A DNA stretch of 16,019 bases from Methylovirgula sp. (GTDB lineage Bacteria; Pseudomonadota; Alphaproteobacteria; Rhizobiales; Beijerinckiaceae). Below are positions 12,193 through 15,957 of the stretch, one piece after another. The notes under the pieces were generated by a model. The model had not been told where the DNA came from. It made no database searches and saw nothing but the letters and a program-made list of their open reading frames with translations. The DNA lies in contig JASHSW010000030.1 in the NCBI GenBank assembly GCA_030038595.1, forward strand, positions 1 through 16,019, read 5' to 3'. Position 1 is the stretch's first letter, and each line of letters opens with the position of its first letter. Both the position numbers and the translations under genes were made by a program.

Positions 12193-13028
12193 CAGCCCTT
12201 GCCCTCGATATCGGCGGCGACGCGGGCGCGAAGTGCGGGCGTTACCCGCGGGCGTACGCCGAACCAGCGCTCGAACCCGGGCACTGCCTGGTGCAGCAAC
12301 ATACCGATACCGCCGGACGTCCTCAGTCCGCGGCGGCGCGCATTGGCGAGCAGCGTGGTTTCGAGCGGCACATAGACGATGTCGGCGACGACGGCGTGAC
12401 CCGGCAAAGGGGCAAGATCGATTTCGAGCGGCGGTTGGCCGGCCATGCCGAGCGAGGTCGTATTGACAAGAAGATCGGCGCCGGCAAGCGCGCCGGCCGG
12501 ATCGCCAGGATCGGCGAGCACGATCGAAGCGCCGAAACGGGAGCGCAGCTCTTCGCCCCGCGCCTGCGTTCGGTTGATGACGACGATGCGCCGCGCGCCG
12601 CGCGACAGGAGTGCGTAGAGAACGGCACGCGCCGCACCGCCGGCGCCGAGTACCGCCACTTTTTCGAGCGTTTTTCCCCAGCCCGGCACGTCATCATCGA
12701 GAGAAGCGAGAAAGCCCGCGGCATCGGTGTTGTCGCCGCATAGTTTTCCACCTTCCATCCACAAGGTATTCACAGCTTCTAGGCGCGCCGCCGTGGGCGT
12801 CGTCACAGCGCAGAGTGCGAAGGCTTTCTCTTTGTGGGGGATCGTCACGTTGCCGCCGACAAAACCGCCCTCGCCCAACGTCGAGAGAAAGGCTTCGATC
12901 TCCTGCGGCGGCAGCGCTAGGCGCTCGTATGTGCCGTTGATATGCAGCTCGTCGAGCCAAGTGCTGTGGATGAGCGGTGAGCGCGATTGCGCAACCGGCC
13001 AGCCGATGATGAAGGCGCGCGGCATCAT
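12192..13028 (-). CDS. aroE: Shikimate dehydrogenase
   Basis: A 278-residue NADP-dependent shikimate dehydrogenase (3-dehydroshikimate to shikimate, aromatic amino acid pathway). The substrate site is seen in GWPVAQSRSPLIHSTWL and VTIPHKEKAF; the catalytic pair is Lys66 and Asp102 (in DNTDAAGFL). The cofactor fold carries VLGAGGAARAVLYAL (GAGGAAR at 128-134), and VINRTQARGEEL fits the phosphate-recognising NRT segment of NADP enzymes. It starts ATGATG; the first ATG overlaps the maf stop by 4 nt (ATGA), and its own TGA overlaps coaE. The DNA coding for the AVNTLWMEGGKL stretch carries three DnaA-box-like 9-mers (see findings). Confidence 0.96.
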   Translation of the reverse strand: MMPRAFIIGWPVAQSRSPLIHSTWLDELHINGTYERLALPPQEIEAFLSTLGEGGFVGGNVTIPHKEKAFALCAVTTPTAARLEAVNTLWMEGGKLCGDNTDAAGFLASLDDDVPGWGKTLEKVAVLGAGGAARAVLYALLSRGARRIVVINRTQARGEELRSRFGASIVLADPGDPAGALAGADLLVNTTSLGMAGQPPLEIDLAPLPGHAVVADIVYVPLETTLLANARRRGLRTSGGIGMLLHQAVPGFERWFGVRPRVTPALRARVAADIEGKG

Positions 13029-13699: not shown

Positions 13700-13714
13700 A
13701 TAACGGTCCGTTAT
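13700..13714. repeat. Perfect 15-nt palindrome at the end of the DUF299 gene
   Basis: ATAACGGTCCGTTAT is a perfect inverted repeat around a single central base. It overlaps the stop codon of the DUF299 gene and lies about 55 nt upstream of the maf start, so it could be an operator for the maf series or a short hairpin. No T-run follows. Confidence 0.4.
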
Positions 13715-14535
13715 ACCGCCAGCCGGCCGCGATGCACCTTGTGAAGGTCGATGATCGCCGCCGCCGTTTCTTCGATCGAGCGGCGCGTCACATCGATTAC
13801 CGGCCAGCCGTGGTGAGCGAAGAGCTTGCGCGATTTGATGATCTCATCGTGTACCGCGACGGGATCGACGTAGGAAGGGTCGGCCATCGAATGCATGGAT
13901 TCAAGCCGGTTTTGGCGCACCTGTACGAGCCGTTCGGCCGAAGCGACAAGTCCGACAATCAGCGGCTTCTTCAGACTGAAGATCGATTTCGGCAGAGGCG
14001 TGTTCGGCACGATCGGAACATTGGCGGTTTTGATCCCGCGGTTGGCAAGATAGATGCTCGTCGGCGTCTTTGAGGTTCGGCTGACCCCGATCAGCAGAAC
14101 ATCGGCATCCTCGTAGTTTTCCCACATCTGCCCGTCGTCGTGCGCCATCGTGTAGTTCAGTGCGTCGATGCGACTGAAATAATGGGCGTTGAGCATATGC
14201 TGCGCGCCCGGCTTCGGATTGGCGGCAGCGCCAAGATAGGCCTGGAAGAGATTGAGGATCGGCTGCAATACCGAGAGAGACGGCGCGCCGACCGCCTGGC
14301 ACGCCGCCTCCAGCCGCTGCGCGAGTGCCGAATCGACAAGCGTATAGAGCACCACGCCCGGCGCAGCTCTAATCTCGGCGATCGCCCGTTCCAGCTGCGC
14401 TTGACTGCGCACCATCGGATAGAGGTGCTCGATGGATGAAACGCCGTCATATTGGGCGACGACGGCGCGGCTGACCGCGATCAACGTCTCGCCGGTTGCA
14501 TCGGAGATCAGATGAAGATGGAATCCGTGTTCCAG
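13711..14535 (-). CDS. Pyruvate, phosphate dikinase regulatory protein (DUF299 kinase/pyrophosphorylase)
   Basis: A 274-residue DUF299 (PF03618) protein, a bifunctional serine/threonine kinase and phosphorylase that switches pyruvate phosphate dikinase, or PEP synthase, off and on. The nucleotide-binding motif [15 protein letters not shown] starts near residue 150, and LRLES-like QNRLESMHS and the C-terminal [10 protein letters not shown] also fit. The family N-terminus, [20 protein letters not shown], is fully encoded, but there is no ATG, GTG or TTG in frame before it. The in-frame upstream stop is near 14576. A CTG at 14535 with GGAG 8 nt upstream gives the normal family length. The first standard start, TTG at 14484, would delete the conserved SDATGET segment. 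This is the RP001 homologue that flanks oriC in related bacteria. Confidence 0.9.
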
Positions 14536-14925
14536 ATGACGTTCTCCCGCGCCCGCCTGGGGATTGCCTGTGATTCACCGTGCACAATTCCGGTGTGTCG
14601 CCCTGCCTCGGTGGGTATCTCCCGCCTTTGCTTCGCGCTTGTCAACAAACCTCCGCCAATGAACAAGTAAAGGCACTGGAGGCTGATTTGACGGAAAGCC
14701 GGTCTGCCTGTGGAACAAAGCCGAATACCGGCGCAAAAGCCGTTGTGGGCGCTGCCGAAACGGAGGCGTTGACAATCAGCAGTGGCGATGTGGGTACGGT
14801 GCAAAGATCGATACCGAGACAAATGATTGTGAAAAATGCGGCAAGAGCCTAATCCCCTGTCTAATAAGAGGAGTCATAAATTCCCTTAGAAACAAGATTC
14901 TTTTTAATCGGCGGAATGACAAAGC
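14536..14925. other. Candidate chromosomal replication origin (oriC) region
   Basis: This 390-nt gap between the DUF299 gene and hemE holds no convincing gene. In Caulobacter and Rickettsia the origin lies between exactly these two genes. Four 7-of-9 matches to the DnaA box TTATCCACA (either strand) are TTGTCAACA (14639-14647), TGTGGAACA (14709-14717), TGTGGGTAC (14789-14797) and TGTGAAAAA (14828-14836). About one such match would be expected by chance, and no perfect box is present. GANTC sites (CcrM methylation) are at 14572, 14871 and 14896, with another at 14521 just outside. An AT-rich block lies at the hemE side. The call rests mainly on gene order. Confidence 0.6.
14861..14908. other. 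AT-rich block, possible origin-unwinding element and/or hemE promoter region
   Basis: Of these 48 bases 35 are A or T (73%), in a window that is otherwise clearly GC-rich. It includes CTAATAAG, CATAAATT and TTTTTAAT, with two GANTC sites. It lies directly upstream of hemE and beside the DnaA-box-like sites, where either an unwinding element or a hemE promoter would be expected. The two roles overlap in Caulobacter. Confidence 0.4.
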
Positions 14926-15957
14926 TTGCATACGAAACCGATCTTGCGTGTTCTTGACGGCGCGGCCCTCTCGCCGCCGCCGCTTTGGCTCATGCGGCAA
15001 GCCGGCCGCTATCTTCCGGAATATCGCGAACTCCGCGCCAAGGCTCCGTCATTTCTCGCCTTCTGCCGGACGCCGGAATTGGCGGCGGAAGCGACGTTGC
15101 AGCCGATTCGCAGGTTCGGTTTCGACGCCGCAATCCTGTTCAGCGACATTCTCATGGTGCCCGACGCGTTCGGCCAGGAAGTCTCGTTTGAGGGCGGCGC
15201 GGGCCCGCAGCTTACGCCGATCGCGGACGGAAAGGATCTAGCGCAGCTTCGTGAAACGATCGACCTCGAGCGCCTTGCCCCTGTGTTCGAGGCGATCGGC
15301 AGAGTAAAGGACGGACTGGCGGATGAGACGGCATTGATCGGCTTCTGCGGCGCGCCTTTCACGCTCGCTGCGTATATGATCGCCGGAAAGAGCGCGCCGG
15401 AACAGGCGCCGGCGCGGCTCTTCGCCTATCGTCATCCTGAGCTCTTTCAGGAGATCATCGACCGGCTGACCATGGGCTCGGTCGCCTATCTATCGCGACA
15501 GATCGATGCGGGCGTCGATCTCGTGCAAATCTTCGAAACCTGGGCAGGCGTATTGCCGGCGGCGGAGTTCGAGCGATGGTCGGTTGTGCCGCTGCGGCGC
15601 ATCGTCGATGGGCTGCGCAAACGACATCCCCATGCAAAGGTAATTGTCTTCGCGCGGCGCGCCGGGATCGCGCTTGATGAGTTGGCGGTGCGCACCGGTG
15701 CCGATGCGTTGGGTTTGGAGACCAGCATCGATCCCTACGCCGCAGCCGCGCAACTGGCGCCGGCAACGATCCTGCAAGGTAATCTCGATCCGCTGGTCCT
15801 TGTCGCCGGCGGCCAGGCGTTGCGGCGCGCGACCGAGCAAATCCTCGCGGCCTTTGGCGGCCGTCCGCATATCTTCAACCTCGGGCATGGGATTCTGCCC
15901 GAAACACCGATTGCGCATGTCGAAGCGCTTGTCGCGCAGGTGCGCGCCGCGTGTTAG
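14926..15957 (+). CDS. hemE: Uroporphyrinogen decarboxylase
   Basis: A 343-residue HemE, which decarboxylates uroporphyrinogen III to coproporphyrinogen III in haem synthesis. Active-site segments are WLMRQAGRYLPEYR (Arg24, Arg28), ILFSDIL (Asp74), GAPFTLAAYMIAG (Tyr150), IFETWAG (Thr205 at the usual Ser/Thr site) and FNLGHGILPETP (His321). The segment VIVFARRAG has Arg245 where the family usually has Gly, a small oddity. The start is a TTG at 14926: an in-frame TGA lies at 14917-14919, and KPILRVLDG must be included. GGCGG lies about 11 nt upstream. An out-of-frame ATG at 14916 opens a 13-codon frame across the start. Length is normal. Confidence 0.95.
   Translation: MHTKPILRVLDGAALSPPPLWLMRQAGRYLPEYRELRAKAPSFLAFCRTPELAAEATLQPIRRFGFDAAILFSDILMVPDAFGQEVSFEGGAGPQLTPIADGKDLAQLRETIDLERLAPVFEAIGRVKDGLADETALIGFCGAPFTLAAYMIAGKSAPEQAPARLFAYRHPELFQEIIDRLTMGSVAYLSRQIDAGVDLVQIFETWAGVLPAAEFERWSVVPLRRIVDGLRKRHPHAKVIVFARRAGIALDELAVRTGADALGLETSIDPYAAAAQLAPATILQGNLDPLVLVAGGQALRRATEQILAAFGGRPHIFNLGHGILPETPIAHVEALVAQVRAAC

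Follow-up and report, generated by a model that had tools for sequence, protein, structure and literature searches.

The 390-nt gap between a PPSR (DUF299/COG1806) gene and hemE is very probably the chromosomal origin of replication of its genome, an oriC of the known hemE-COG1806 (hemE-PPSR) class. We draw this from three observations taken together: the GC-skew minimum of three relatives falls in an interval holding hemE, dnaA lies elsewhere in two of them and lacks a cluster of DnaA-box-like sites in seven genomes, and the sites in the gap are conserved as a set. With it, a group of uncultured Beijerinckiaceae-like bacteria gains a well-supported oriC. An earlier sequence-only reading had taken the gap for an oriC using degenerate DnaA sites, and the skew in relatives and the conservation of the gap and its sites support it.

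The PPSR-hemE gap and its borders

The window, that is, the whole stretch of DNA analysed, is one entire contig (C152, 16,019 bp) of a draft genome (G000) of 1.85 Mb in 253 contigs, 81.8% complete. Among the matches listed for its HemE, the closest named relatives are Methylocella (64%) and Methylosinus/Methylocystis types, and we therefore call the genome Beijerinckiaceae-like. The neighbours that had been named from the letters (PPSR, maf, aroE, coaE, dnaQ and hemE) are borne out by NCBIfam matches, and the synteny around the gap is conserved among relatives. The features of the region are as follows.

13711..14535, minus strand: PPSR (DUF299/COG1806) gene, left border (NCBIfam NF003742, E 3.6e-99)
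14536..14925, no strand: predicted chromosomal origin (oriC), the PPSR-hemE intergenic region (synteny, GC skew in three relatives, box-like density in relatives, conservation)
14569..14577, minus strand: box-like site TGAATCACA, which differs from the Caulobacter G-box at two positions; relatives have similar sites there
14580..14588, minus strand: eroded box place, GTGCACAAT on the plus strand; several relatives carry TTATCC-type boxes here
14639..14647, plus strand: DnaA-box-like site TTGTCAACA, differing from TTGTCCACA at one position and one of the best conserved 9-mers in the gap
14709..14717, minus strand: DnaA-box-like site TGTTCCACA, a single mismatch away from TGATCCACA, the Caulobacter G-box; conservation 0.43, at background
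14752..14766, no strand: where the TTAA-N7-TTAA (CtrA-type) site of relatives aligns; none in the window (from the alignment)
14789..14797, minus strand: DnaA-box-like site GTACCCACA, aligned with CTATCCACA (1 mismatch) in the nearest relative
14827..14855, plus strand: conserved pair TTGTGA - 17 nt - TAATCC, promoter-like, towards hemE, with fixed spacing in relatives
14828..14836, minus strand: DnaA-box-like site TTTTTCACA, overlapping the promoter-like pair, inside the conserved block at 14825
14861..14908, no strand: AT-rich block, candidate unwinding element, 72.9% AT
14926..15957, plus strand: hemE with a TTG start, right border (TIGR01464, E 3e-116)

As in the hemE-COG1806 class, a few hundred base pairs separate the two border genes, and the AT content is above average (47% versus 37% for the window) with an AT-rich stretch. 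That stretch, earlier given as a 73% AT block, indeed ranks first among all 48-nt windows of the 16 kb.

The PPSR frame opens with CTG at 14533-14535 (minus strand) and has no ATG, GTG or TTG in frame upstream; this CTG is probably the start, with a GGGAG 8 nt ahead of it. The PPSR gene of one relative (G008, locus L112) keeps the same CTG and also has an in-frame ATG upstream. Among 13 relatives inspected, a start near the same place is TTG in nine and ATG or GTG in three. PPSR has no match in the fetched flanks of six Devosia loci and of the Methylocystis/Methylosinus loci (L034-L037, L039, L041, L045). In these seven methanotroph loci hemE faces maf across about 425-475 nt, so that the PPSR border has been lost there and the gap kept. 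The assembly of G001 breaks on both sides of the origin (C50, C137), truncating PPSR at residue 70 (contig end 5840) and hemE at residue 27.

The length of 390 nt given earlier for the gap is correct, and the accompanying description as gene-free is likely but imperfect, with two mechanical ORFs (90 and 104 aa) overlapping the gap. By tblastn, the 104-aa ORF, on the minus strand, resembles the homologous gaps of G008 (57% over 42 aa, E 3e-12, continuing in another frame) and of G005 (32% over 78 aa, E 9e-6). We consider coding in the gap unlikely, given that the similarity shifts frame and that the G008 gap holds no frame open for more than 68 codons on the same strand. We read the similarity as conservation at the level of DNA. 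A search of the gap against Rfam families returned no match, and an RNA element was dropped as a reading.

The three GANTC sites counted earlier are present, but their enrichment is not significant (1.4 expected; 15% of 2000 shuffles reach three); with a count this near chance they carry no weight. The IHF consensus, which we take to be WATCAANNNNTTR, a loose one, has no match with at most one mismatch in the window's gap, and 4 of the 12 aligned gaps have one.

Skew and DnaA-box-like sites

With its genome in 253 contigs, the window's own skew is uninformative; within the 16-kb contig, too short for such a test, it is flat within error. Skew was sampled at 20 places of 20 kb in three single-contig or near-single-contig genomes, two of the same genus (G004, G006) and one of the same family (G019). 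The cumulative GC-skew minimum fell in the interval holding hemE in all three: 1.00-1.16 Mb with hemE at 1.057 in G004 (best square-wave r 0.81), 2.26-2.43 Mb with hemE at 2.416 in G006 (r 0.90) and 0.65-0.86 Mb with hemE at 0.704 in G019 (r 0.89). The noisiest of the three was G004, where isolated samples at 0.50 and 1.82 Mb had the wrong sign.

The sequence-only reading had named a skew minimum at another locus, for example next to dnaA, as evidence that would count against it. The minimum is at the hemE locus in 3/3 relatives and not at dnaA in the two in which dnaA was located. An origin at dnaA, as in many bacteria, would be the general expectation and has only that behind it, but the distance from hemE to dnaA is about 0.81 Mb in G004 and 0.16 Mb in G006, which places dnaA beyond the skew interval, and the start regions of dnaA frames hold 0-1 box-like sites in 7/7 genomes (in G000 within only 225 nt upstream). 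Contradicted in two relatives, an origin at dnaA has a negligible chance of being correct. DnaA domain IV carries RDHTTV in 7/7 genomes (the frames were picked by that motif); this box-reading motif being kept, nothing points to a new DnaA specificity.

On a finer scale, in contiguous stretches of 400 kb, the GC-skew minimum and the homologous gap are 17.5 kb apart in G006 and 16.2 kb in G004; for a least-squares change point the distances to the gap are 1.6 kb and 16.4 kb, respectively. TA skew in the same stretches reaches its minimum farther off, at about 91 kb in G006 and 105 kb in G004. The GC-skew shift characteristic of the class is thus found in three relatives, in two of them to within 16-17 kb, and at this offset the skew points to the neighbourhood and not to the gap itself.

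Within the gap, four 7-of-9 sites to TTATCCACA and none better had been listed, and exactly these were recovered (14639 on the plus strand; 14709, 14789 and 14828 on the minus strand), versus 0.83 expected from 1000 first-order Markov shuffles, of which 0.5% reach four. The window's gap has no perfect or one-mismatch TTATCCACA, and the predicted DnaA-binding cluster therefore consists of weak sites. This is normal at PPSR-hemE origins: in a set of 83 such gaps, a perfect TTATCCACA occurs in 28 and is lacking in 55, and a match with at most one mismatch occurs in 65, the window being among the 18 with neither. The set was formed by dropping the duplicate loci L001, L002 and L004-L010; the pairs L017/L043 and L019/L044 remain, so that 81 gaps are distinct. 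Weak DnaA boxes at this origin are thus common among relatives, and the Caulobacter origin uses weak G- and W-boxes (PMC4468827, PMC4285127; published origins are described here and below from excerpts of the papers cited).

Alignment of the gap with eleven relatives, a check that had been suggested along with the origin reading, showed that the gap and its box-like sites are conserved. Compared with random 9-mers of the gap, the four sites as a set are more conserved (mean 0.70 versus 0.45, p 0.0014). The four candidates differ in quality: the site at 14709 is at background and that at 14828 overlaps the promoter-like pair. The three best conserved blocks of the gap are GATTGTGAA at 14825, GCCTAATCC at 14847 and TTGTCAACA at 14639. 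Nearer PPSR, conservation of the TGAATCACA site is not above background (tested as 14565-14574; 25% of windows reach it), and 7% of windows are as conserved as 14580-14588, where, judging from the alignment, the window has lost a TTATCC-type box.

The conserved pair ahead of hemE requires separate consideration. TTGTG-N18-TAAT occurs in 21 of the 83 gaps, 110-143 nt before the hemE end of the gap string, with variable sequence between its halves; it is found once in the window and once in 400 kb of G006. A consensus sigma-70 scan gave no promoter match and did not detect the TTGTG/TAATCC pair, whose fixed spacing is thus its one promoter-like property; the scan also gave 3 terminator-like sites versus 0.6 expected. 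From its sequence, it looks like a hemE promoter or two sites held in phase.

The gap might accordingly be just a divergent promoter for PPSR and hemE, with the true origin within about 20 kb, for example at a cluster of box-like sites in aroE. The resemblance of the best conserved pair to a promoter and the skew minima 16-17 kb off the gap fit this, as does the aroE box-like count, which equals that of the gap in the window and in G006. Within the 51 kb of G000 examined, 7 of 974 other windows equal the count of the gap, all inside aroE (about 12401-12820), and the origin of this genome could not be picked out by box count alone. However, across 800 kb each of G004 and G006, with 15,663 other windows per genome, the gap's count is not reached at all in G004 and only three times in G006, always at one place in aroE. 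Moreover, the aroE cluster lies in coding sequence and is restricted to near relatives: at least four box-like sites in aroE are found in 9 of 10 distinct loci of the window's genus and nearest neighbours (G000, G008, G004, G006, G007, G002, G019, bin_134 and Methylocella; G005 has two sites) versus 1 of the 60 other loci with a long enough aroE match. In addition, the second lowest point of the G006 skew curve is 1.7 kb from the gap, and in Caulobacter this class of origin has been mapped experimentally to the same gap (PMC1914354, in excerpt). We therefore regard a promoter-only gap as highly unlikely.

The aroE clusters lie 1.6-2.1 kb from the gap (2.1 kb in the window; the G006 copy is at L266 2500-2930), and three of the box-like sites are 11 nt apart both in the window and in G006. 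They could be due to coding constraint on a conserved AroE stretch or form a DnaA-binding cluster near the origin. The points that count against the gap as oriC are the lack of a perfect or one-mismatch box, the lack of an IHF match, the offset of the GC- and TA-skew minima from the gap, the wrong-sign samples of G004, the uninformative skew of the window's own genome, one unconserved site and this equal-sized aroE cluster.

The CtrA-type site in relatives

In the 450 nt before hemE, TTAA-N7-TTAA is found in 47 of 110 loci (58 sites) versus 0.48 expected from 50 shuffles; other spacings from 2 to 13 are found in at most 13 of 110. Between 100 and 330 nt before hemE, the site is present in 42 of 108 distinct loci and other spacings from 3 to 13 in at most 12; these 108 loci are interdependent and selected, and 42/108 is not an unbiased sample of the order. 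The loci came from the best 80 of at least 589 confirmed matches, 30 of the 59 entries of another listing and ten stretches. Left out of the counts were the duplicates L001, L002 and L004-L010 (108-locus count), the loci L003 and L114, and any locus with fewer than 400 nt ahead of hemE or with its hemE match beginning beyond residue 12, which left 110. Genome-wide the motif is rare: G004 has 13 in 3.3 Mb and G006 has 20 in 3.7 Mb, with one in the gap in each.

By groups assigned by hand from record titles, the site is present in 6/6 Devosia, 11/14 Microvirga/Enterovirga/Methylobacterium and 1/1 Chelatococcus loci, in 6/9 of the window's own genus and in 13/21 genomes of its GTDB family outside the genus. 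It is also present in 3/7 of Methylocella/Methylocapsa with Beijerinckiaceae or Rhizobiales MAGs and in 2/6 other Hyphomicrobiales MAGs. None was found in Methylocystis/Methylosinus (0/7), other Hyphomicrobiales (0/4), G054 (0/1), Sphingomonadales (0/21), or Rhodobacter-/Rhodospirillales and others (0/11).

The window and G008 lack TTAA-N7-TTAA in the 450 nt before hemE, where the best match has 3 mismatches and is worse than that of most shuffles. In G005 the only match, 50 nt before hemE, has one mismatch and is of a kind that 11% of 200 shuffles reach. In a PPSR tree, G005, G000 with G008, and G003 with G004 and G007 fall in one clade (support 100/98), and as the branching order among the three is not resolved, the origin site may have been lost once or twice.

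We give even chances to the proposal that a conserved CtrA site, similarly placed, is common at the oriC of Beijerinckiaceae, Methylobacterium/Microvirga and Devosia and was secondarily lost in the window lineage, which would release initiation from direct blocking by CtrA while GcrA, CcrM and ChpT remain. GcrA is present in 11/11 genomes of the genus, a CcrM-type RAMA domain in 8/11 (including G000 and G001, not G008 or G009), and CtrA at 83-84% identity in 6/11; G003, which is 60% complete, has just a relative at 38%. A complete ChpT domain is present in G000 and G009 and was not found in G001 or G008.

Loss of the ctrA gene together with its origin site is an unlikely alternative. The gene loss seemed strong at first (0/4 genomes): CtrA at E <= 1e-40 was absent from G000, G001, G008 and G009, whose best matches at E <= 1e-4 are 35-39% regulators, and in the two of these four drafts with an assembled gap, G000 and G008, the origin site is gone. 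It was weakened by contig ends at the expected place and by a missing neighbour. In G005 the gene order is chpT, cheA, cheW, cheY, cheR and ctrA, with mnmA about 2.6 kb on. The contigs due to reach ctrA stop short, C119 of G000 past cheW, C34 of G009 in cheA and C63 of G009 in cheR, which adjoins ctrA in the G005 order, and mnmA is missing from the same four drafts and from G003. With contigs breaking beside the expected place, loss of the gene is unproven, and a shared assembly or binning gap is the simplest reading. Further points against gene loss are the complete ChpT domain in G000 and G009, the absence of the origin site in G005, which has CtrA, and the lack of a genome-wide deficit of TTAA-N7-TTAA in the four drafts (13 in 1.85 Mb of G000 versus 13 in 3.3 Mb of G004). 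The four drafts are 1.6-1.9 Mb in size (73-84% complete) versus 3.1-3.7 Mb for four near-complete members of the genus, and they possibly represent a genome-reduced lineage.

A search of largely subscription-free literature turned up no paper that treats CtrA sites at the origins of Beijerinckiaceae, Methylobacterium or Devosia. A 2015 review, in the part available, states that such sites were not seen in origins besides Caulobacter and possibly Rickettsia (PMC4468827), a 2007 paper predicted them in silico for Wolbachia and relatives (PMC1914354), and the CtrA of B. abortus does not bind the origin according to the excerpt consulted (PMC2877005). Close relatives with and without a CtrA-type oriC site are a natural set for testing the role of CtrA at origins.

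Proposed initiation and known origins

If the gap functions as oriC, DnaA would assemble on several weak boxes, spread from the PPSR start to some 90 nt short of hemE; the AT-rich block adjoining hemE would open, and forks would depart both ways. Transcription at the hemE end matters for the function of the Caulobacter origin. Since the promoter-like pair lies between the boxes and the AT-rich block, hemE transcription may aid opening here as well; at Cori, CtrA activates a promoter (review PMC4468827, in excerpt). With no recognisable CtrA site, initiation is probably not blocked by CtrA bound at oriC.

Similar arrangements are known or predicted elsewhere. The oriC of Methylocystis sp. SC2, from the same wider group, was likewise placed away from dnaA genes by Ori-Finder, but it is a prediction only, with no clear skew in the account available (PMC3794950), and in Methylocystis loci hemE is beside maf with no PPSR match. 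Predicted origins of Wolbachia and Ehrlichia resemble the gap in having hemE as one border and in being predicted in silico, but their other border is COG1253; most have predicted CtrA boxes, with none described for one Wolbachia strain and E. ruminantium in the excerpt (PMC1914354). Hyphomonas neptunium is comparable as an alphaproteobacterial origin, and its CtrA ChIP-seq peak adjoins the origin (PMC7200025, in part), whereas the window has no CtrA site. The chromosomal origin of Sinorhizobium meliloti, also in Hyphomicrobiales, has no CtrA motif and no CtrA binding as far as the available text goes (PMC4433202), so that CtrA sites are not required for the class.

The closest parallels are the origins of C. 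crescentus and R. prowazekii, which are at the same place as the gap (PMC1914354). That of R. prowazekii (hemE / RP001) is like it in border genes and in size, 384 bp (PMC1914354). Unlike the gap, it is 82.6% AT. CtrA and IHF sites were reportedly found there by Brassinga in 2002. Cori differs in having five CtrA sites and an IHF site (PMC1914354), whereas the window has neither a CtrA site nor a match to the loose IHF consensus. In its hemE and COG1806 borders, its AT-rich stretch and its weak DnaA sites (two G-boxes and five W-boxes; PMC4468827, PMC4285127), Cori is like the gap described here.
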